A stretch of DNA of 53,770 bases from the NCBI RefSeq assembly GCF_015550595.1, contig NZ_JADNBB010000033.1, positions 1 through 53,770 on the forward strand, given 5' to 3'. Source of the stretch: Parabacteroides goldsteinii. Its GTDB lineage: Bacteria; Bacteroidota; Bacteroidia; Bacteroidales; Tannerellaceae. Made by a program: the position numbers and the translations under genes. Positions within the stretch are counted from its first letter, which is position 1. Every line of letters begins with the position of its first letter. Positions 41,843 through 53,770 of the stretch are shown one piece after another. A model generated the notes under the pieces. It was given only the letters and a program-made list of their open reading frames with translations. It ran no database searches and was not told where the DNA came from.

Positions 41843-41926
41843 AGTTGGGAAAGTTGTATTTCTTCAATAATTGTGTACATTTACCCGAAATAAGTCTGAT
41901 TAGAGAGCATGATAAATAACGTTTCT

Positions 41927-44900
41927 ATGAAAATTTACATCGTTCTGCTAGGTTTGCTTCTGTGTGCCGGGCTGCAAGCGCAGGTTGTCCGCGACGATTC
42001 GTTTGTGCTTAAGACGGATGTCTACGGGAAAACGCTGGCCGAAGTATTGGACGCAATCGAACAACAGACCGCTTATTCCTTTATATATGACGCCCGGGTG
42101 ATCGACCTGTCGGCCCCCGTCCGTGAGCGTCTGCAAGGCCGTTCGCTGCTCGACCTGCTCGACCTTCTGTTCAAGGATACCGACATCGCCTTCACGGTCG
42201 TTAATAAACAAATCATTTTGAATCACAGGGAATACGTCATCCGTATGCAGGAAAACCAGACCAGGCAGGTGGCAGGCACCGTGACCGACAAGGCTGGCGA
42301 ACCGATAATCGGTGCGAATATCCTCATCAAAGGCACCAGCCGCGGCACTGTGACCGACCTTGATGGCAATTTCATGCTCGACTTGCCGCCCAAGGCAACC
42401 CTGCAAGTGTCGTATATCGGTTACCTTCCCCAGAAAATCAATTATAACGGTGAACGTGTCCTGCATATCCAGCTGGCGGAGGACTCCCAACAGTTGGGCG
42501 AAGTGATCGTGACTGCTCTCGGACTTCACAAGCAGGAAGCCTCCCTGCCGTACGCCACCCAGTTTGTGGCAGGCGACGAGCTGATACGCGCGAAGGAGTT
42601 CAACTTTATCCAGACGCTGGCCGGGAAAACCGCCGGTGTACAGATCAACCGCACCTCTTTCGGCCTCGGAAGTTCGGCAAGGGTTATCATCCGCGGTTAC
42701 CGTTCTGTATCGGGAAACAACCAGCCGTTGTATGTGATCGACGGTATTCCGATGCTGAACAGCAGCAACGAACAGGCCATTTCGGCCATCGGGGGCACTG
42801 CTGATTCCGGCAACCGCGATGGCGGCGACGGTATTTCAAACCTCAATCCCGACGATATCGAGAGTATGAGCATTCTCAAAGGTGCATCCGCCGCTGCTTT
42901 ATACGGTTCGCAAGCTGCCAACGGGGTGATCCTGATTACCACAAAGAAGGGACATGCCGACGTGCAGCGCGTCTCCTTCTCGTCCAGTTTGACGGTCGAC
43001 CGTGCCGTCAGCCTCCCTAAGTTCCAGAACGACTACGGCATGGATCGCGAAACAAATACCAGCTGGGGAGAACGTTCCGAACTGGAAGACTATGACAACG
43101 TTGGCGGCTTCTTCCGTAACGGCCTGACGGCTATCAACTCCCTCTCGCTCACTACCGGTAACGAGAAGATGCAGACCTACTTCTCTTATGCCAACACCAC
43201 CGCCCGGGGGATTGTAGAACACAACAAACTGCAAAAGCATAACCTGAATTTCCGCGAGTCCGCCGGCTTCTTCGATGACTACCTCAAGCTGGATGCCAAC
43301 GTCAACCTACTGACACAGGGCATCAAAGATCGTCCCTCCTCGGGTGGCTATTACATGAATCCCCTGGTAGGCCTCTACCGTTTCCCGCGCGGCGAGGACA
43401 TCAGCGTGTATCGCGACCAGTTCGAAACCTTCAACGAAAAGCGCAACCTGATGGAGCAGAACTGGTACACAGACGGCGAGCTCGACATGGAACAGAACCC
43501 TTATTGGCTGACCAACCGTGTCAGGAGTGACGACAAACGCACCCGCGTCATCGCCTCCCTGACCGCCACCCTTAAGGCGACCGACTGGCTGAACCTGCAG
43601 GCACGCGGCACAGCCGATTACGCACACGACACATTCCAGGAGAAAATGTATGCCTCTACCTCGCCTGCACTGGCGGGGGCAAACGGCCGTTACATCGACT
43701 TCAATTATACGGAAACCCTCTATTATGGCGACGTGATGGCCATGGCAAACAAGAAATGGGACGATATCACCTTTACCGCCGCGCTGGGGGGAAGCATCAA
43801 CAGCCGGACGGTCAATTCGCTGAGACTCGACTCGAAAACCGCCTCGCTGTACTACCCGAACCTCTTCACAGTGGCCAATATCATCATGTCTACCGCCGCC
43901 TATATCAACCAGAAGATCAACGAACGACGCGTCATCCAGTCGCTCTTTGCCACCGCGCAGGCAGGCTGGAAGGAAAGTTTCTACGTCGACTTGTCGGCAC
44001 GCAACGACTGGTCGTCGACGTTGGCCTACACCCGTTACAAAAGTTTTTTCTATCCCTCGATCGGTTTGTCGTGGATCTTGAACAATTCCCTGGAAATGCC
44101 TAAGTGGGTCAGTTTCGGCAAGTTGAGAAGCTCGTGGAGTAAAGTCGGCAACGACCTGCCTCTCTTCCTCAGCAACCCTATCCCCGGAAGCAACGACCTG
44201 ATTATAGCCGGTGGAGCGATCCAAACCAACTCCGGCGCGCCTTTCGACGAGCTGAAACCCGAAATGAGCACCTCGTGGGAGGTAGGTACCGAATGGAAAC
44301 TCTTCGATTACCGCCTCGATTTCGATTTTACCTTCTACAAGACAAATACGAAGAACCAGCTCTTCACGCTCCCTTCGTCCGCCGGGGCTACCTATAAGTA
44401 CTACTATGTGAACGCGGGGAACATCCGCAACCAGGGAATAGAAGCCTGCGTCGGTGTCATCCCCCTGCTGACGAACGATTTCAGGTGGAAGACTTTACTC
44501 AACTTCTCCACCAACAAAAATAAAGTCATCGCGCTGCATCCCGACCTCAAGACCTTCATTTATGGCGACGAGGGCTTTTCTTCTTCCTACTCCATGCGGC
44601 TGGTCGAAGGCGGAGCGATGGGCGACATCTACGGCAAGGCCTTCAAGCGTGACGAAAACGGCCGGATCGTCTACACCAAAGACGAGGATGGCGACCAGAT
44701 CCCGGTCGTGATCGGCTCCGGCAATACCGAGAAGGTAGGTAACAGCAACCCTAACTTTATGCTCGGGTGGGGCAACGCCTTTACCTACAAGGGTTTCAGC
44801 CTCTATTTTCTGATCGACGGCCGTTTTGGGGGTGATGTGCTCTCGCAAACGCAGGCCGATATGGACCAAAAAGGGGTCAGCCTTGCATCGGGCGAAGCAC

Positions 44901-45250
44901 GCAACACGGGCTACGTCGACCTCGAAGGCACGTACCTCGACCCTTCCAAGTTCTATACCATCGTGAGCGGACGCAACGGTTGCACCGAATATTATATGTA
45001 TGACGCGACGAATATCCGTCTCCGCGAATTTTCACTCGGCTATGCGCTCCCGAAGCGGCTGTTGGAAAAGACGAAACTCTTGCAGGAGATGCAACTTTCG
45101 CTTGTGGGGCGCAACCTCTTTTTCTTCCATAAATCGGCACCCTTCGACCCCGATGCCGTGCTCTCGACCAAGAATGACAACCAGGGCATCGATGTATTCG
45201 GTATGCCGACCACTCGAAGCCTGGGATTTAACGTGAAACTTTCTTTCTAA
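41927..45250 (+). CDS. SusC/RagA family TonB-linked outer-membrane transporter with STN domain
   Basis: A receptor of about 1107 aa. I use Met7 (41927) as start because MKIYIVLLGLLLCAGLQAQ is a complete signal peptide; ATG 41909 is the alternative. STN domain about 30-101 (YGKTLAEVLDAIEQQTAYSF), CarboxypepD_reg-like about 115-190 (VAGTVTDKAGEPIIGANI), plug about 200-335, and barrel ending FNVKLSF. The STN domain makes it the likely signal source for the FecR at 35724. Codon use is distinctly richer in C-ending codons than the first SusC. It pairs with the SusD-like protein 15 nt downstream. Confidence 0.94.
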   Translation: MKIYIVLLGLLLCAGLQAQVVRDDSFVLKTDVYGKTLAEVLDAIEQQTAYSFIYDARVIDLSAPVRERLQGRSLLDLLDLLFKDTDIAFTVVNKQIILNHREYVIRMQENQTRQVAGTVTDKAGEPIIGANILIKGTSRGTVTDLDGNFMLDLPPKATLQVSYIGYLPQKINYNGERVLHIQLAEDSQQLGEVIVTALGLHKQEASLPYATQFVAGDELIRAKEFNFIQTLAGKTAGVQINRTSFGLGSSARVIIRGYRSVSGNNQPLYVIDGIPMLNSSNEQAISAIGGTADSGNRDGGDGISNLNPDDIESMSILKGASAAALYGSQAANGVILITTKKGHADVQRVSFSSSLTVDRAVSLPKFQNDYGMDRETNTSWGERSELEDYDNVGGFFRNGLTAINSLSLTTGNEKMQTYFSYANTTARGIVEHNKLQKHNLNFRESAGFFDDYLKLDANVNLLTQGIKDRPSSGGYYMNPLVGLYRFPRGEDISVYRDQFETFNEKRNLMEQNWYTDGELDMEQNPYWLTNRVRSDDKRTRVIASLTATLKATDWLNLQARGTADYAHDTFQEKMYASTSPALAGANGRYIDFNYTETLYYGDVMAMANKKWDDITFTAALGGSINSRTVNSLRLDSKTASLYYPNLFTVANIIMSTAAYINQKINERRVIQSLFATAQAGWKESFYVDLSARNDWSSTLAYTRYKSFFYPSIGLSWILNNSLEMPKWVSFGKLRSSWSKVGNDLPLFLSNPIPGSNDLIIAGGAIQTNSGAPFDELKPEMSTSWEVGTEWKLFDYRLDFDFTFYKTNTKNQLFTLPSSAGATYKYYYVNAGNIRNQGIEACVGVIPLLTNDFRWKTLLNFSTNKNKVIALHPDLKTFIYGDEGFSSSYSMRLVEGGAMGDIYGKAFKRDENGRIVYTKDEDGDQIPVVIGSGNTEKVGNSNPNFMLGWGNAFTYKGFSLYFLIDGRFGGDVLSQTQADMDQKGVSLASGEARNTGYVDLEGTYLDPSKFYTIVSGRNGCTEYYMYDATNIRLREFSLGYALPKRLLEKTKLLQEMQLSLVGRNLFFFHKSAPFDPDAVLSTKNDNQGIDVFGMPTTRSLGFNVKLSF

Positions 45251-45265
45251 TCACCACAGACGAAA

Positions 45266-46885
45266 ATGAAAAAGATAACCGCCTATATCGCCCTGATATT
45301 TCTGACCGGATGGCTGGGGCTGGCCTCGTGTACCGGACATTTCGAGTCGTACAACACCGACGGAACCGGGTTTCCCGACGATTTGAAGGAACAGGAATTC
45401 AACAAGTACGGGCTCCCCCTCAAAGTCGTGCAGCAGGGAATTTACTTCAACTACGATTGGGGCGGGGGGAAGAACTGGACGTTTCAGGTGATGCAGAACC
45501 TCGGCGCGGACATGTTCGCAGGCTATTTCCACGACTTTAGCCCCTACATCGAAGGAAGGGGTAACACCATCTATAACATGCAGGACGGTTGGAACGGCGC
45601 GTTCTGGGAGAACACCTACGGTTATATCCTGCCCGAAATCCTGAAGTCCGAAGAACTCACCGAAAAAAAGTATGCATCCTTTTTCGGAATAGCACGCATC
45701 CTAAAAGTAGAAACCATGCATCGTGTTTCCGATTTGTATGGCCCTATTATTTATACCCAGTTCGGGTCTAAAACCGGATCGATGCCCGACACCCAGGCCG
45801 AGGCCTACCGCGTTTTCTTTAAAGACCTCGACATCGGGATCGAGAAGATACGCGAATACCAGGAGGAAAACCCGAAGGTGGAGAATTTTGCCAAGTTCGA
45901 TTTCCTGATGCCTAAGACCAAACGTACCTACGACGAGTGGATCAGGTTCGCCAACTCCCTGCGCCTTCGCCTGGCTGTCCGTATCGCAATGGCTGACCCT
46001 CAACTGGCCGCTTCCCAGGCACATAAGGCTCTGGCCGACAGGGGCGGACTACTGGAGAACGACGATGATATCGTAGCTGTCTCGACCGCCGGCAGCGGCT
46101 ACAACAATCCTTTGGGGGAGATCAGCGTAGCCTGGGGCAGTGCCATCATGAACGCCAACCTCGAATCGTATATGGGAGGCTATGAAGATCCCCGCTTGCC
46201 CCACTACTTCAAGAAGGCTCTCGGTGGGAAAGGGGAGGAGATCGTGCGCGTAAGCGGCACGTTCAAGGGCATGCGTCAGGGAACGGGTTTCAACCATAAG
46301 AATTACAGCGAACATTCGAAGAGTACCATCACCCAATCGACCGACGCAGTGTTGATGACCGCCGCCGAAGTTTGGTTCCTGCGTGCCGAGGCAGCTCTGC
46401 GCAAATGGTCGGCCGAGGACGTACAGGCCTGCTACGAGAATGGCGTGAGAGCTTCATTTGCGCAGTGGAGCGCCGGTGATGTGACGTCTTATCTCAAGAG
46501 TACCCGTACGCCGAAAGAGTATCGGGATGCCTTTAACGCCGCCTTCGATGTACAGGCTATGAGCCGTATAACGCCGGCCTGGGACGAAACGGCCACGAAC
46601 GAAGAGAAGCTCGAACGGATCATCACCCAGAAATGGATTGCCTGTTACCCCGAAGGTTGCGAAGCCTGGGCCGAACAGCGTCGCACGGGCTATCCGCGTC
46701 TCTTTCCCGTCCTGGTGAATGCCAGCCAGGGGACGGTCGACACCAACCTGGGCCCTCGCCGCCTCAACTTCATGGTGGGTATCAAGGCCGCCAACCCCCA
46801 GCAGTACACCGCCCTGGTCAATGCCCTCGGAGGTTCCGACCATTGCGGCACCCGCCTGTGGTGGGATACGGGAAGGAATTTCTGA
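45266..46885 (+). CDS. SusD/RagB-like lipoprotein (SusD-like_2 type)
   Basis: A 539-aa lipoprotein with lipobox GLASC (Cys22), FANSLRLRLAVRIAMADPQ (about 230-248) and a terminal CGTRLWWDTGRNF that parallels the other SusD-like_2 protein. It forms the uptake complex with the STN-type SusC upstream. Composition is GC-rich like its partner. Confidence 0.93.
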   Translation: MKKITAYIALIFLTGWLGLASCTGHFESYNTDGTGFPDDLKEQEFNKYGLPLKVVQQGIYFNYDWGGGKNWTFQVMQNLGADMFAGYFHDFSPYIEGRGNTIYNMQDGWNGAFWENTYGYILPEILKSEELTEKKYASFFGIARILKVETMHRVSDLYGPIIYTQFGSKTGSMPDTQAEAYRVFFKDLDIGIEKIREYQEENPKVENFAKFDFLMPKTKRTYDEWIRFANSLRLRLAVRIAMADPQLAASQAHKALADRGGLLENDDDIVAVSTAGSGYNNPLGEISVAWGSAIMNANLESYMGGYEDPRLPHYFKKALGGKGEEIVRVSGTFKGMRQGTGFNHKNYSEHSKSTITQSTDAVLMTAAEVWFLRAEAALRKWSAEDVQACYENGVRASFAQWSAGDVTSYLKSTRTPKEYRDAFNAAFDVQAMSRITPAWDETATNEEKLERIITQKWIACYPEGCEAWAEQRRTGYPRLFPVLVNASQGTVDTNLGPRRLNFMVGIKAANPQQYTALVNALGGSDHCGTRLWWDTGRNF

Positions 46886-46900
46886 AAATTCACCAAATCA

Positions 46901-46935
46901 GTAATATTGGTAATAATAACTGTAATTTATATTAC
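46901..46935. promoter_or_regulatory. GTAAT/ATTAC cluster upstream of the NikR-like gene
   Basis: GTAATA (46910-46915) and TATTAC (46930-46935) form a 6-bp dyad with a 14-nt spacer. GTAATAT at 46901 and ATATTAC at 46929 form a wider one, and further GTAAT copies occur at 46922 and 46970. The half-site resembles the GTAAC half-site before the receptor gene, so this could be an autoregulatory site. Confidence 0.35.
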
Positions 46936-46956
46936 ATTATTTCTTTTTGGCTCCTT

Positions 46957-46964
46957 TACCTTTG
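46957..46964 (+). promoter_or_regulatory. -7 promoter element (TACCTTTG) for the NikR-like gene
   Basis: TAnnTTTG match 38 nt before the start codon; a GTAAT copy at 46970 would overlap the transcription start. Confidence 0.5.
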
Positions 46965-47002
46965 TATCGGTAATAAAATAGTATATTTATCGCTCAAAAT
47001 AA

Positions 47003-47416
47003 ATGAAGCAATCTATGTCGATAAAACGTTTTGGCGTCTCCCTCGAAGACAACCTATTAGAATCGCTCGACCAGTATGTGGACGAAAATGGCTTTGCCAA
47101 CCGCTCACAGGCCATTCGCTTCCTGATAGAAAAGAACGTGGCCGAGAAGAAATGGCAATGCAATCACATCGTGGCCGGCACTATTATTATTATGTACGAC
47201 CAGGAGAAGACCGCCATCGCTTCAAAGATCGTGAGTATCCAGCAGGATTATCAGGATGTGATACTTTCTTCCTCCCAATATTATGTCAATCAGAATTTCT
47301 GCCTTCATATCGTTACCGTGATGGGAACTGCCCACCGCCTGACCGAATTGTCGGATAAACTGACTGCCATCAAAGGGATTAAACACGGTAAACTGGTGAT
47401 GAGCCGGGCCGATTAG
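47003..47416 (+). CDS. NikR-family ribbon-helix-helix regulator with a degenerate nickel site
   Basis: A 137-aa protein with an N-terminal ribbon-helix-helix (about 7-45: KRFGVSLEDNLLESLDQYV, NRSQAIRFLIEK) and a C-terminal ACT-like NikR domain. Aligned by eye with E. coli NikR recalled from memory, the four high-affinity Ni ligands His76, His87, His89 and Cys95 fall at Gln81, Gln92, Tyr94 and Cys100 at a constant offset of five. Three of four are therefore lost, and classical nickel sensing is unlikely. Other potential ligands are Cys53, His55 and His102. It is followed by a TonB-dependent receptor whose promoter carries a NikR-type dyad. Met5 is an alternative start. Confidence 0.88.
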   Translation: MKQSMSIKRFGVSLEDNLLESLDQYVDENGFANRSQAIRFLIEKNVAEKKWQCNHIVAGTIIIMYDQEKTAIASKIVSIQQDYQDVILSSSQYYVNQNFCLHIVTVMGTAHRLTELSDKLTAIKGIKHGKLVMSRAD

Positions 47417-47434
47417 TTATATTTTTTTGCATGT

Positions 47435-47468
47435 AAAGTAACACGATTTTGTTTATTTGTGTTACTTT
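47435..47468. promoter_or_regulatory. NikR-type operator dyad on the TonB receptor promoter
   Basis: AAAGTAACAC (47435-47444) and GTGTTACTTT (47459-47468) are perfect 10-bp inverted repeats with a 14-nt spacer. The core GTAACA-N16-TGTTAC has the same geometry as the known E. coli NikR site (6 bp, N16, 6 bp). Its right half overlaps a near-consensus -7 element TTACTTTG (47462-47469), so a bound protein would block transcription of the receptor gene 40 nt downstream. Confidence 0.65.
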
Positions 47469-47508
47469 GCGCCACGGAACAGATGACAAATATTATACAA
47501 TTTAAATT

Positions 47509-49422
47509 ATGAAGAAAGGATTTTTACTTATTCCGGGGCTACTGTTCAATACGTTAGCCTACTCCTCCGAACCGGTAGAACCCATCGAACCGCTGGGAAT
47601 AGACAGCCTTATCAACTTGAAGGGTGTTGTGATCTCGGCCAACAAGATACAGGTAAACCGCAACAGCGTCCCGCTTTCCATCTCGGTGGTCGACCGCGAC
47701 GAGATAGAGGCCAGTAGCGAGTCGGCCCTGCTTCCGGTGCTCTCGCAGCGCGTCCCCGGACTCTTTGTAACGCAGAAAGGCATCACCGGTTTCGGGGTGA
47801 ACGATGGGTCGGCCGGGACGGTTAACATCCGTGGCGTAGGGCAGGGCAACAAGGTATTGATGCTCTTCGACGGACAGCCGCAGTGGGCCGGTATCTTCGG
47901 ACATGCGCTGCCTGACACTTATGTGGCTTCCGACGTGGAACGGGTGGAAGTGATCCGCGGCCCGGGCTCGTTGATGTACGGTTCCAACGCGATGGGCGGC
48001 GTGGTGAACATCATCACCCGTCACCATAAGCAGCAGGGACGGCGCACTCAGGCACGTATCATGTACGGTTCCTACAACACGCAGAAGTATATGGTGAACA
48101 ACGGTTACAACCTCGGCAACTTCAGCAGCTTCATTTCCGTGAACCACGACCGTACGGACGGCCACCGGCCCAACTCCAAATTCCATATCACCAACGGCTT
48201 TGCCAACCTAGGGTACAAGATAAACGATCATTACCGCGTGACAGGCGACCTGAGTTTGGCCAAGTTCAAGACCCAGAACCCAGGTACGATCGACGAACCG
48301 GTGCTCGACTATCTGGTAGACGTGTTGCGTGGTACGACCTCTTTCGCACTCGAAAACCATCACGAAAAGACAAGTGGTGCCCTGCGTGTGTTCTACAACT
48401 GGGGAAATCACGAGGTGAATGATGGCTACGAGCCCGGCGGAACACCCCGCACATATCTCTTCCGTTCGGACGATCATAACACAGGTGTCCTGCTTTACCA
48501 GTCGTTCCGTCTCGTCGAAGGCAACACCTTTACGGCCGGTATCGACTATAAAAACTGGGGTGGACATGCATGGAACGACAGCATCAACGGTCCGAAAGGT
48601 GAACTGATTGACAAATCTGTCAATGAAGTGGCTGGCTACGTCATCATGCAACAAGACCTCTTTGATATGTTAAGTATCAACGCCGGTGTGCGTTACGAGC
48701 ATAACAGTGTGTTCGGGGGCGAATGGGTTCCGCAGGCAGGCCTTACCTTCCGTCCGTTCGAGGGCAATGTGATCCGTGCTTCTTTCTCGAAAGGTTTCCG
48801 CAGCCCCAACATCCGCGAGATGTATATGTGGGGTGCGGCTAACGACGAACTGAAACCGGAAAATATGTTGAATTACGAGGTTGCCATCGGACAGTCGTTC
48901 CTCGACGGACGCTTGTATGGCGAGGTGACGGCTTTCTTTATCGATGGAAAGAATATGATCGAGTCGGTAAGCGTGATACCCGGCCAGCAGTATCCGATGA
49001 AGAACCGCAACGTCGGAACCTTCACCAACAAAGGTATCGAGTTTGAGGGCCGCTACCAGATCCTCGGAAACCTCAGCGTCGATATGAATTACAGCTACCT
49101 CCACACCAGCAAGCCGCTCTTAGCTGCTCCGGCCCATAAGCTCAATGTGGGTGCAACCTATGCTCCTGGACGCTTCACCTTCAACGCGAATGTACAGTCC
49201 GTGTACGACCTCTACGTGAGACTGGCCGGCGAGAAAGTTTCCGAAGTCAAGGAAAATTACACCGTTCTCAACGCCCGCGCCGCCTACCGGTTCGGCAGCC
49301 GCGACAAAGGCTTGAACCTGTTTGTCAAAGGGGAGAACCTAACGGCTACCCGTTATACGATCAATTACGGTTTTCCGATGCCCAAGGCCGTGTTCATGGG
49401 TGGCATAGATGTGACATTCTAG
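47509..49422 (+). CDS. TonB-dependent outer-membrane receptor (metal/metallophore type)
   Basis: A 637-aa classical receptor, not SusC-like. Signal peptide about 1-19; plug about 40-165 (NIRGVGQGNKVLMLFDGQP, VERVEVIRGPGSLMYGSNAMGG); barrel to the terminal FMGGIDVTF. No CarboxypepD_reg or STN domain is present. The plug is of the siderophore/cobalamin/metal type. The NikR-like regulator and dyad just upstream suggest regulated uptake of a metal complex, but the ligand is not deducible. No transporter for the inner membrane is adjacent. Confidence 0.92.
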   Translation: MKKGFLLIPGLLFNTLAYSSEPVEPIEPLGIDSLINLKGVVISANKIQVNRNSVPLSISVVDRDEIEASSESALLPVLSQRVPGLFVTQKGITGFGVNDGSAGTVNIRGVGQGNKVLMLFDGQPQWAGIFGHALPDTYVASDVERVEVIRGPGSLMYGSNAMGGVVNIITRHHKQQGRRTQARIMYGSYNTQKYMVNNGYNLGNFSSFISVNHDRTDGHRPNSKFHITNGFANLGYKINDHYRVTGDLSLAKFKTQNPGTIDEPVLDYLVDVLRGTTSFALENHHEKTSGALRVFYNWGNHEVNDGYEPGGTPRTYLFRSDDHNTGVLLYQSFRLVEGNTFTAGIDYKNWGGHAWNDSINGPKGELIDKSVNEVAGYVIMQQDLFDMLSINAGVRYEHNSVFGGEWVPQAGLTFRPFEGNVIRASFSKGFRSPNIREMYMWGAANDELKPENMLNYEVAIGQSFLDGRLYGEVTAFFIDGKNMIESVSVIPGQQYPMKNRNVGTFTNKGIEFEGRYQILGNLSVDMNYSYLHTSKPLLAAPAHKLNVGATYAPGRFTFNANVQSVYDLYVRLAGEKVSEVKENYTVLNARAAYRFGSRDKGLNLFVKGENLTATRYTINYGFPMPKAVFMGGIDVTF

Positions 49423-49958: not shown

Positions 49959-49962
49959 ATGA
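49771..49962 (+). CDS. Doubtful 63-aa ORF overlapping the start of the surface protein gene
   Basis: ATG at 49771, stop TGA at 49960-49962 sharing ATGA with the next start codon, as in coupled genes. The product (starting MSKITAVFLVGHS) has no signal peptide or motif and an unusual Phe/Ser/Lys/Tyr-rich composition. Only the overlap argues for it. Confidence 0.25.
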   Translation: MSKITAVFLVGHSPSAYYVCYRLRRYKRKIPFFFTSKSTSFFKDNVDNELHYHSCNTLIHKEI

Positions 49963-52900
49963 AAAGAATTATACTTACTTTATTCCAACTATGTCTCATT
50001 GCCGGGATGCAATTGACAGGACAAACCGTAGATAATGTTTTGGATTTGCAGGATGCGATAAACAATGTTTCAGATGGAGGAACGATTACTTTATCGTCTT
50101 CCTTTCCAAAGGAAAATGCAACTGCTATCGCTCTCCAGGTGAATCATAGTAATAATTTTACGATCAACGGAGGCGGTGAAGAGTATAAAGTGACCGCAGA
50201 TGTCCGGTTTTTTACGATCAATAAAACCGCATCAGGTTCGACCGGTAGCCTCACTCTGGACGGCTTCCATTTTGTAGGCAGACGTCTGCCTTCTTCGGGT
50301 ACCGCTTCCGGACTCGGTGGGGGAGGTGTTGTTATTTCAAATAACAGTTACGGAACCATCCAGTTTATTAACTCCAGTTTTAATTCTATATCGGGGGTTG
50401 GACTGGTTGCCGGCAATTCAACATGTACAGTCGTGCTTAAGAAGACCACATTTATAAACAACTGGGGCTTCGGTCATGGAGGTGGTTTGTATGTTGCCGG
50501 TAAAACGAATGTGATTATCGACTATTGCACATTCGATAAGAACTATGGAGATATGAACGGAGGGTATTCGGGCGGTGCGATGTGTTTTGAAGGATATACC
50601 ACGGGAGTCGCGAAGATATCCAACTGTGTCTTTACCAATAATGTGGCAAATGAGTGGGGAGGAGCTATCGGAGTATATGCTCCTGTTGGAGGTTCTGTTT
50701 CTATCGATGCCTGTTACTTTGCTTATAATTCAACCATTAGGACGAATAACGGGAATGGTGACGGTGGAGCGATCGGCGTACATGGAGGAAATGCAAATAC
50801 GCATTATGCGAAGTTTTATTTGTCGAATTCTACCTTCTACAGAAACAAGGCCTCCGACGATGGTGGTGCCGTGTATGTACAAAATCCGGCGGCCGGTGCG
50901 GAAAGCAGCATCGTTAACTGTACCATGTTTGAGAATGAGTCGAATGATGTGAATCCGGCCACTACCGTACAATTGGGTATGACATTTAACGTTGCTACGT
51001 CGGGCGGGGCAGTTCAGGTTTCGTTGCCGACTCCCATCACCATGAAAAATAATACGATCATCCGCAACTATACGACCAGTTCTTATCAAAGGGGTGGCGG
51101 GATAGGTGCCCATGCGAACTCGGATGGAGCTCCAAAGTTCACACTAAGGAATAACATCATACTGGGTAATTATATCAAAAGTGGTGTAAATGAGATCACT
51201 AATAGTTATGCTAATATCGGGAAACATAGTATTTTTAATCCTAGTTATTCCGTAAATGTAGGAAATATCGGCTTTGATAATGGTTCTAACCTGGCGAGTA
51301 ATATAACTATAAAGAACACCTTTGGTCGGGATGACGTGGTCCTTCATGGAAATCACGTTCAGGATAATGCGGCAAATAAAGTGGGAAACCCGAATGAACT
51401 GAATACCGATTATTATAGGATCATCCCTTCAATATCAATTATTCCTAACGATAATGAATTTACTTTTGGGCTGGCAGACGGGAAAGGCGTTACTAATTCC
51501 CTGACATCCGATCAAAGGGGATATGCAAGGAGTACCAGTAAACCGGATGTTGGCTCTGTTGAAATCTTTTGGGCCCGTTTCAATGCTAACGGAGGAATTT
51601 GGACGGGATTGGGAGAAAACGCCTATATTGGTGATGATTACTATACCCTGACTGATAGTAAAACATCTTATTATTATAAAGTTTCCTATTCTGGTGGTAA
51701 GGTAACCAGTCCGACCACTGCTACGGACAAACTCGTTCATCCGGATGGAAAGGTGTTTGTAAAATGGGTAACAGATGATGAATATGAAACAGATTGGAAC
51801 AGCAATACCCCTGTTACAGCCGATTTAAAATTGAAAGCTATCTGGAAAGATGGGGCTTTGGATATAATCTATCATTCTAACTTCGGTACGGATCAGACTT
51901 TTACCGCATCGGCTTCGGATGGGAATGTGACAGTAGCCACCTATCCGGCCACGAGCCTGCCCAACCGTCTGAACTACATCTTCCTGAAATGGACGACCAA
52001 GGCCGACGGAACCGGTACGGCTTACCTGCCCGGAGCGACCTTCACCATCACCGAGAATACCGACCTTTACGCCCGGTGGGAGCCCAATTCCGCGTTGAAG
52101 CTGCAATGGTCTGTCTCCAAGACAACCGCCGCCCCGTATGAATTCAGCGATGTGGAGAACAATTCCACGACGACCGTCATGGTCGGAACGCCTGTTTACG
52201 TGCAGATCCGCCCGGTCGGCCTGGAGCATGTCGACTTCGACACCTGGGCGATCGAGTACATCGCCACCCCGACCGACTACCACTATCCGATGGGAGAGGC
52301 TATCGGGAAAACCCTGCGCTATGACTTCAATAAAGGGGAAGCCCACACGCTCGAAGGTACTTACTATTATAATGTGACCAAGCTGCTCCTGTATAAAGGC
52401 GGTGTGGAAGTGGCCGCCTATATCTACCGGAACGCTTCCTGTACGCATAAGGTGGTTATCCAGGACGAACCGGTCGTGAAAGATCCGGCCCTGCAATGGT
52501 CCGTTTCCACAGTGACGAGCGAACAGCCTTACTTCAAGGATGTGGACGACCAGTCAACCACTTCGGTGAATTACGGCACTCCTGTCTTCGTCCAGATCCG
52601 TCCCGTCGGACATGAGGGCATCAACTTCGAACGCTGGGCGGTCGAATACACCGTGACCCCGGCCGAGCACTACTACGGCATGAACGCGACGCTGAAGACC
52701 GAACGTCACAACTTCAACAACCGGGAGGCCCATACCGAAAAGGGAACCTACATATACACCGTCACCAAACTGACCCTGTATGACATGTACGGCAACCAGA
52801 CCATCGAGACTTACGACTATGCCGACTCGCCCTACCGCCACACAATCGTGATCGGCAACGGCGAAGGCCCCGGTCCTGGTCCTGGCGGCGCGCTGCAATG

Positions 52901-53770
52901 GTCTGTCTCCACTGCCTCCAACAAGCTCGAGGACTTCCGGGATGTGGACAACCTGACCACTACCACCGTCACCAAAGGGACGCCGGTGTACGTGCAGATC
53001 CGCCCTGTCGGTTTCAACAACGTCACCTACGACCGTTGGGAAATAGAGTACACCGCCACTCCGGCCGGCTATCATTATCCGCTGGACGAAGCCGTCTTGA
53101 AAACCGAACGTTACACCTTCAACAAAGGGGAGGCCCATACGCTTGTCGGTACCTATATATATAATGTACACAAGCTGACGCTCTACAACGGCGAAAGCAT
53201 CGCATCGGAGCAGTATTACAACCAGCCCGCTTACCGGCACACGATCGTCATCTCCGACGAAGGCATGATCCATGTGGGCGAGACGGCGCCGTATTGTAGC
53301 GTGGACAGCGAATTCAGAATCCCTGTCAGCGTCCTGAATCCGGACTATCCGATCGAGTATGCCGTCCGTTTCACGGATGAAGCGATTGCCGCCGGCTTCA
53401 GCGATACGGAATACAAAGACCTGACTCCGGGATACATCACCGTTCCGGTTTCCAACCGCATCCCGAGAGGTATCTACCACGCCAACATCTATGTGCGCCT
53501 GAAGAGCGACCCGGATCGCGAGGAGGCTTACCCGTTCAACATCGAAGTGTTGGAGACAACGACCATCACCCGCCAGCCGCAGTCGGTGAACGTTTGCGAC
53601 GGCGACGCCTTCACATTGTCGGTCGAAGCGACGGGCGTCAACCTGAGTTACCAGTGGTTCTTCAATGAAGTGGCCATTCCGGGTGCGACTTCCGACAGCT
53701 ACACGGCAGCACTGACTCCGGACAAGGAGGGTATCTATTATGTAGACGTATACGGTGACTGTGGAATGGA
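49959..53770 (+). CDS. Large secreted beta-helix / InlB-B-repeat / Ig-like surface protein, 3' end outside window
   Basis: The frame is open from ATG 49959 to the window edge, 1270 codons with no stop. Signal peptide MKRIILTLFQLCLIAGMQLT. Residues about 25-480 read as a right-handed parallel beta-helix (repeated Gly-Gly-Ala/Gly and Asn-rich turns). Two InlB-B-type repeats follow at about 543-630 (FNANGG..., KLKAIWKDG) and 631-709 (LKWTTKADGTGTAYLPGA, DLYARWEPN). Then come three tandem units of about 130 aa, each opening LQWSVS with a GTPVYVQIRPVG core (715-844, 845-978, 979-1104). A junction domain and an Ig-like domain (from about 1205) end at the edge. Composition changes from AT-rich to GC-rich near 51940. 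A role in adhesion is inferred. Confidence 0.85.
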   Translation, partial: MKRIILTLFQLCLIAGMQLTGQTVDNVLDLQDAINNVSDGGTITLSSSFPKENATAIALQVNHSNNFTINGGGEEYKVTADVRFFTINKTASGSTGSLTLDGFHFVGRRLPSSGTASGLGGGGVVISNNSYGTIQFINSSFNSISGVGLVAGNSTCTVVLKKTTFINNWGFGHGGGLYVAGKTNVIIDYCTFDKNYGDMNGGYSGGAMCFEGYTTGVAKISNCVFTNNVANEWGGAIGVYAPVGGSVSIDACYFAYNSTIRTNNGNGDGGAIGVHGGNANTHYAKFYLSNSTFYRNKASDDGGAVYVQNPAAGAESSIVNCTMFENESNDVNPATTVQLGMTFNVATSGGAVQVSLPTPITMKNNTIIRNYTTSSYQRGGGIGAHANSDGAPKFTLRNNIILGNYIKSGVNEITNSYANIGKHSIFNPSYSVNVGNIGFDNGSNLASNITIKNTFGRDDVVLHGNHVQDNAANKVGNPNELNTDYYRIIPSISIIPNDNEFTFGLADGKGVTNSLTSDQRGYARSTSKPDVGSVEIFWARFNANGGIWTGLGENAYIGDDYYTLTDSKTSYYYKVSYSGGKVTSPTTATDKLVHPDGKVFVKWVTDDEYETDWNSNTPVTADLKLKAIWKDGALDIIYHSNFGTDQTFTASASDGNVTVATYPATSLPNRLNYIFLKWTTKADGTGTAYLPGATFTITENTDLYARWEPNSALKLQWSVSKTTAAPYEFSDVENNSTTTVMVGTPVYVQIRPVGLEHVDFDTWAIEYIATPTDYHYPMGEAIGKTLRYDFNKGEAHTLEGTYYYNVTKLLLYKGGVEVAAYIYRNASCTHKVVIQDEPVVKDPALQWSVSTVTSEQPYFKDVDDQSTTSVNYGTPVFVQIRPVGHEGINFERWAVEYTVTPAEHYYGMNATLKTERHNFNNREAHTEKGTYIYTVTKLTLYDMYGNQTIETYDYADSPYRHTIVIGNGEGPGPGPGGALQWSVSTASNKLEDFRDVDNLTTTTVTKGTPVYVQIRPVGFNNVTYDRWEIEYTATPAGYHYPLDEAVLKTERYTFNKGEAHTLVGTYIYNVHKLTLYNGESIASEQYYNQPAYRHTIVISDEGMIHVGETAPYCSVDSEFRIPVSVLNPDYPIEYAVRFTDEAIAAGFSDTEYKDLTPGYITVPVSNRIPRGIYHANIYVRLKSDPDREEAYPFNIEVLETTTITRQPQSVNVCDGDAFTLSVEATGVNLSYQWFFNEVAIPGATSDSYTAALTPDKEGIYYVDVYGDCGM
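52101..53270 (+). repeat. Three tandem about 390-nt coding repeats in the surface protein
   Basis: Units begin at CTGCAATGG in 52101, 52491 and 52893 (spacings 390 and 402). Each encodes LQWSVS, then DVxxxxTT, GTPVxVQIRPVG, W(A/E)(I/V)EY, NxxEAHT, GTYxYxVxKLxLY and a HxxVI end. Unit 2 ends in a Gly-Pro linker. They differ in sequence enough to be old duplications. Confidence 0.85.

Follow-up and report, generated by a model that had tools for sequence, protein, structure and literature searches.

The window, i.e. the whole 53,770-nucleotide stretch analysed here (Parabacteroides goldsteinii, contig NZ_JADNBB010000033.1), harbours a gene for a NikR-like regulator followed by a gene for a TonB-dependent receptor, with an inverted repeat between the two. 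The features of this locus are as follows.

47003..47416, forward strand: NikR-like ribbon-helix-helix (RHH) regulator of 137 aa, assigned from domains, fold and residue alignment
47435..47468, no strand: full 10-bp inverted repeat, its outer AAA/TTT not generally conserved (by eye)
47438..47465, no strand: putative 28-bp operator GTAACAC-N14-GTGTTAC, with half-sites conserved at 21-bp spacing in 64/67 orthologous pairs
47438..47444, forward strand: left half-site GTAACAC, assigned from sequence and conservation
47459..47465, forward strand: right half-site GTGTTAC, assigned from sequence and conservation
47462..47469, forward strand: -7-like element TTACTTTG, overlapping the right half-site, one mismatch to TAnnTTTG
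47509..49422, forward strand: TonB-dependent receptor of 637 aa with a BtuB-like fold, the presumed target, assigned from domain and model comparison

The initial annotation had described GTAACA-N16-TGTTAC inside a 10-bp perfect inverted repeat, and the repeat is indeed there: its arms, AAAGTAACAC (47435-47444) and GTGTTACTTT (47459-47468), are 10 bp long each, 100 % complementary and separated by a 14 nt gap. The dyad also lies where it had been placed, i.e. downstream of the NikR-like gene, which stops at 47416, and ahead of the receptor ATG (47509), and the near -7 element said to overlap it was found over the right arm.

Within a single genome the dyad does not stand out. The exact operator pattern occurs once in the 6.53-Mb genome, a reversed control pattern likewise once, and with up to two mismatches the window contains four sites vs 2.14 in shuffles, 14 of 100 of which reach four; therefore, the dyad in one genome is not beyond chance. 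What takes it beyond chance, as far as sequence comparison can tell, is its conservation among relatives. The site before the receptor was the sole operator found in the window's genome by pattern and degenerate searches. A near-match (G000:C44:169461, L225) was rejected as a second site since it falls within a 563-aa reading frame, and of the degenerate matches one (C3:129751, L350) is by eye part of a terminator-like hairpin and two (L351 and L352) lie within reading frames. Separately, an AT-rich repeat (GTAATA...TATTAC) with a low operator score was seen upstream of the regulator, at 46901-46930 of the window; it is also present in L002 and L003 and, by eye, absent from more distant relatives.

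Of the 123 family genomes, 102 gave a match to the regulator; at the level of the order it is present in 76 of the 295 genomes sampled. After 10 of 182 loci had been dropped (L031-L040, which are pattern matches and not regulator loci), 172 loci were oriented, the window's own included, and the regulators were classed by the residues aligned to the nickel ligands; fragments in G083 and G108, from the 102 regulator-matching family genomes, were not taken as regulator loci. The regulators that are 61 % or more identical to that of the window, 108 in all, are referred to here as the Q clade. A receptor orthologue adjoins the regulator in 67 of these 108 loci, and 64 of the 67 regulator-receptor pairs (the window's included) carry GTRRCAC/GTGYYAC half-sites whose starts are exactly 21 bp apart, a site being called at 13 or more of 14 positions and 52 of the 64 scoring 14/14. 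Other spacings, from 15 to 28 bp, gave 0-2 pairs each and 100 rounds of dinucleotide shuffles a mean of 0.01 pairs with a 21-bp site, the species being related and the operator counts not being independent events. One of the three misses (L022) has half-sites 20 bp apart, and a site was present in 1 of the 41 Q-clade loci with no receptor detected next door (scored more strictly, some of these loci ending at contig edges). The initial annotation had made its reading depend on conservation of the dyad upstream of orthologous receptors, and such conservation is what these pairs display. On this comparison, the dyad is almost certainly a real, conserved operator.

Across the named loci compared (best 80 of 304), just two families are widespread, the regulator with 77 loci by our gene calling and the receptor with 51; the one that comes next is present in 9. 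A SusC/SusD-type pair lies directly upstream of the regulator (window 41909-46885), its families occurring in only 6 and 3 of these 80 named loci (best 80 of 304), and a very long open frame for a repetitive secreted-looking protein (window 49959-53768) runs off the window end.

It is the spacing, and not the symmetry, that is conserved, because the linked operators keep the same 21-bp spacing also as direct repeats, which make up 18 of the 64 (16 in one sense and 2 in the opposite one), the remaining 46 being inverted. The proposal of a perfect dyad as operator therefore survives in its half-sites and their spacing (kept in 64/67), but not in its perfect symmetry (18/64 direct), and the outer AAA/TTT of the 10-bp arms is by eye not a general feature in relatives. 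The half-site itself has the form GT-nnn-AC, so that half-sites may be readable in either orientation, each RHH dimer being two-fold symmetric. In one locus (L369 1501-1570, i.e. G066:C24:23100-23169), four half-sites were seen in a row, in 21-bp steps, between regulator and receptor.

The -7 consensus of Bacteroidota promoters is TAnnTTTG. A box with at most one mismatch to it overlaps the right half-site in 31 of the 64 operators vs 4 of 60 shuffled controls; these overlapping boxes begin at operator position 25 or 26, with TTACTTTG of the window at position 25. Such a placement would fit repression.

The operator is also found away from the regulator. Of the intact palindromes in the family that are not beside a regulator (n=12), eight immediately precede receptor orthologues of 43-70 % identity. 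Two stand before another TonB receptor (27 %) that is divergent from ABC-transporter genes, one precedes a NicO-LarE-LarB-LarC operon and the last falls within a gene. We further scanned, over a stretch reaching 200 bp upstream and 40 bp downstream of the expected start, 27 receptor orthologues that are not directly downstream of a regulator, all in genomes with at least a regulator fragment (fragments only in G083 and G108); L317 and L319 (no upstream sequence) and L309 (regulator directly upstream) were left out of this count. A site of at least 13/14 was present in 22 of the 27 (shuffle expectation 0); five of the genomes (G004, G006, G012, G020 and G086) have the regulator close to the receptor, in convergent orientation. 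Among the five misses, L336 has a site at 12/14 and the other four (G006, G007, G012 and G020) are internal to lar operons of the order LarE-LarC-LarB-membrane protein-receptor, with a site at the operon head (13/14 in G006 and 12/14 in the other three).

Where no regulator was found (n=8), the receptors carry the site in three genomes, i.e. G014 (70 % complete), G072 (98 %) and G110 (90 %), and at 12/14 in G015, with none in G022, G029, G078 and G081. The difference between 22/27 with and 3/8 without the regulator gives a Fisher p of 0.027 with relatedness ignored; since G072 is 98 % complete, it counts against a strict regulator-operator pairing. In G078 (C113, L373), a genome without a detected regulator, 21-bp-spaced GTAACAC-containing repeats were seen and taken as unrelated; they look by eye like a 21-bp tandem repeat, were rejected as operators and left uncounted. 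Considering these data together, it is highly likely that the NikR-like regulator next to the dyad uses it as its operator and represses the receptor. The assignment to the adjacent regulator, as made in the initial annotation, retains the NikR geometry, the conservation in 64/67 pairs and the position over the receptor promoter, but loses the symmetry as a conserved property.

The regulator has the architecture of the NikR family, with both domains over cut-off (NikR_C, PF08753, 1.5e-23; PF01402, 3.2e-05), and scores 118.9 bits against the cut-off of 105 bits of the NCBIfam equivalog NF003381 (nickel-responsive NikR) despite its missing ligands. Among solved structures, NikR of Pyrococcus horikoshii (PDB 2bj1 and related) is the closest by sequence (E 1e-28), and the C-domain of the model, which is a monomer, matches the C domains of NikR structures to within about 1.3 Å over about 81 residues. 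The nearest named relatives of the regulator among the matches listed (best 80 of 304) belong to Parabacteroides. The high-affinity nickel site of NikR is formed by H76, H87, H89 and C95 (E. coli numbering). At these positions the regulator of the window has Q, Q, Y and C, i.e. lacks the ligand set of a nickel-responsive NikR, and E97 is replaced by H. Calling the regulator 'NikR-like' is thus justified by fold and domains, but the label hides the loss of three nickel histidines (Q/Q/Y), and the protein should not be named a nickel-responsive NikR without experiment.

The same holds throughout the Q clade: the full HHHC set occurs in 0/108 proteins, and 104/108 have no histidine at 76, 87 or 89. 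Instead, Q87 is found in 98, Y or F at position 89 in all 108, and C95 and H97 in 103 each, with position 76 being variable (Q in 84/108); the L090 regulator, having a stop in frame, is absent from these residue counts. An in-frame TAG was observed in the regulator gene of a Tannerella metagenome genome (G111:C23, L276:9001-9408). In a tree of 105 rows, computed with the ligand columns removed from 40 of the 107 Q-clade rows, the remaining rows that reach 120 aa and a pair of references, the sampled Q clade forms one side of a branch with a support of 84, the tree having few columns and many open forks; four changes between ligand-bearing and ligand-lost rows are needed, of which well-supported branches force only two.

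Outside the Q clade, further NikR-like proteins were seen that have lost most or all nickel histidines and adjoin LarE/LarC-like genes (L143, L155 and L160, by eye), as well as others with such a loss that have UreH-like neighbours and, in L060, a LarE-like neighbour (L059 and L060, by eye). These five apparently represent separate ligand loss next to nickel-pincer-cofactor genes.

Ligand-keeping NikRs of the same order, defined by complete ligands (HHHC, 53 loci) and all less than 60 % identical to the window's regulator, use the same half-sites as the Q clade: 40 of the 53 loci carry them at 20- or 21-bp spacing, up- or downstream. Upstream operators are present in 33 of the 53 loci, in varying orientation (17 everted, 9 and 3 direct, 4 inverted), and 30 of these 33 end 0-1 bp before the start codon of the regulator (e.g. 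L051 and L163), which suggests apparent autoregulation; in contrast, a site in front of the regulator gene was found in 0/107 Q-clade loci. The residues R9, G11 and S13, which presumably contact DNA, are shared by 107 of the 108 Q-clade rows, and the HHHC rows have them in 53, 49 and 52 of 53 cases, respectively; this would fit a half-site common to both. Receptor orthologues adjoin 17 of the 53 HHHC loci, and CbiM-like, UreH/NicO-like and periplasmic-binding-protein-like genes, as well as receptors, were recognized among the neighbours by reading their sequences.

The receptor model has a mean pLDDT of 75.9 and BtuB as its closest fold, at 20-22 % identity. The receptor reaches 134.3 bits against the 599.7 bits of the BtuB equivalog TIGR01779, and among the matches listed (25 of 33 families) no NCBIfam model was over its cut-off. 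Hints at its substrate come from relatives with lar genes. LarC was found in 20 of 121 family genomes, none of them in the window's genus, and 15 of the 20 gave an examinable lar start (G019, G022, G093, G102 and G110 were left out due to contig ends or unclear gene order). Four of the 15 lar starts have a site of at least 13/14 (G006, G082, G094 and G105; shuffle expectation 0.0) and four more have one at 12/14 (G004, G007, G012 and G020), i.e. 8/15 at 12/14 or better vs a shuffle expectation of 0.095. At the other seven no operator was found (G005, with one half-site, G008, G009, G013, G016, G084 and G104). Nearby transport genes carry the site in G004 and G084, and likewise in G019, the G084 substrate-binding protein matching Peripla_BP_2. 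The regulators of lar genomes, where found, belong to the Q clade, with no second regulator match listed in those genomes.

As for the operon genes, LarB, LarC and LarE of G006 are over their NCBIfam cut-offs, and the gene after them, which encodes a membrane protein, hits DsbD_2 (PF13386) and no nickel transporter model. LarB of G082 scores above its cut-off, and the first gene there barely exceeds that of NicO (28.0 vs 27.7 bits). In several Tannerella-type genomes the receptor has a lipoprotein-like protein of about 200 aa as its neighbour (L413:12036-12641 and nine named loci). After the receptor of the lar operon comes a protein that by eye looks similar, and for this one no Pfam or NCBIfam match was found.

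The window's genome itself has a [NiFe] hydrogenase and gave no match to LarC or LarA, for which reason scavenging of the nickel-pincer cofactor by this organism was rejected as an explanation. The hydrogenase as the sole reason for the module was rejected as well: among the genomes at least 90 % complete (n=65), 56 have the regulator; the hydrogenase is present in 16 of these and LarC in 7, and 35 were scored as having neither. G091, one of these 35, and G113 are missing from the 121-genome list and were probably not included in the hydrogenase and LarC searches. Most likely, then, the receptor imports nickel or a nickel chelate, a reading suggested by relatives in which this operator also precedes lar and nickel-transport genes. 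Since no LarC or LarA match was found here, the nickel role is well supported in those relatives and only likely in the window's organism.

Taken together, the dyad is very probably the docking site of a NikR relative controlling an outer-membrane uptake gene. A tetramer of the regulator would set one two-fold-symmetric RHH dimer on each GT-nnn-AC half-site. Since the two half-sites are separated by two helical turns (21 bp) and cover the -7 region of the promoter that drives the receptor, the bound regulator would keep RNA polymerase off this promoter. The regulator probably descends from a nickel-binding NikR, would have lost the square-planar nickel site and has a new residue set (Q87, Y/F89, C95 and H97) that appears nearly fixed, so that it may answer another signal, or nickel via another site. 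A more far-reaching idea, to which we give somewhat less than even odds, is that this Bacteroidales NikR clade swapped its nickel site for another sensor site while keeping the NikR operator and the nickel-acquisition targets, nickel uptake thus being governed by something other than free Ni(II), e.g. a nickel chelate, a nickel-containing cofactor or another metal.

Rather doubtful, but to be taken seriously, is that the regulator is still a nickel sensor, i.e. an ordinary Ni-NikR repressor binding Ni(II) via an altered site made up of C95, H97, Y89 and others. The retention of C95 and the change of E97 to H, each in 103/108, would suit such a site, as would the nickel genes among the targets in lar-bearing relatives; however, all three ligand histidines are gone in the window protein and in 104/108 clade members, and the variation at position 76 (Q in 84/108) is unusual for a metal site. 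That the regulator became a constitutive repressor without any effector after losing its sensor site is unlikely: the loss of the nickel site and the absence of an autoregulatory site from 107 Q-clade loci would agree with it, but the pocket looks constrained and not decayed, as Y/F89 in 108/108, C95 and H97 in 103 and Q87 in 98 indicate.

Returning to the dyad as operator of the adjacent repressor, we consider it quite improbable that the site belongs to another transcription factor or that the regulator activates instead of represses. G072 and G110, which have the site without a detected regulator, speak for this alternative, whereas homologues that keep the nickel ligands have these half-sites next to the start codons of their own genes (30/33 upstream sites), the geometry is identical to that of the E. 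coli nikA operator and the overlap with the -7 box fits repression. It is hardly credible that the dyad acts as an RNA hairpin, be it the terminator of the regulator gene or the receptor leader, for although the window RNA folds well (z -4.28), two direct-repeat relatives fold no better than shuffles (z 0.49 and 0.78), such direct forms keep the 21-bp spacing and thus speak against a hairpin, the -7 box lies over the right arm in 31/64 and no Rfam match was found in 46800-47700 at E 0.1.

The operator of a repressor related to NikR, as preferred here, points to a way in which gut Bacteroidales may govern a metal receptor of the outer membrane, and in some relatives it ties this receptor to the genes for the nickel-pincer-nucleotide cofactor. 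It also makes operator, regulon and sensor swap open to test in proteins that carry a nickel-responsive database label but no longer have the nickel histidines. The comparative evidence further suggests that NikR-type operators need the half-site spacing and not a palindrome, and the way in which a metal sensor changes its effector while its DNA site stays becomes testable.

Among the closest known systems is E. coli NikR with its nikA operator; the window's system would work in the manner of NikR, with an operator of NikR type. The two regulators share the RHH and NikR_C architecture, and the nikA operator, GTATGAC-N14-GTCATAC, has the same 28-bp layout, i.e. two 7-bp GT-nnn-AC half-sites with 14 bp between them, upstream of a nickel uptake gene; it was found in 5375 of 5426 E. 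coli genomes, with 5250 records of at least 99 % identity, and ends 37 bp before nikA. The initial annotation was correct in that the spacing equals that of the known NikR operator and the half-site differs. The window dyad has two half-sites two helical turns apart (6-N16-6), a geometry identical to that of nikA, and carries GTAACA in place of GTATGA; over the full half-site (GTAACAC vs GTATGAC), two of seven bases differ, and the orientation varies among the relatives of the window. Of the nickel ligands of E. coli NikR, the window regulator keeps C95 only, and its presumed target is an outer-membrane receptor. NikR of P. horikoshii, the closest solved relative, keeps all four nickel ligands, unlike the window regulator. 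In Helicobacter pylori, NikR likewise keeps its nickel ligands; its half-sites are degenerate and nearly self-complementary, and it represses TonB-dependent nickel receptors.
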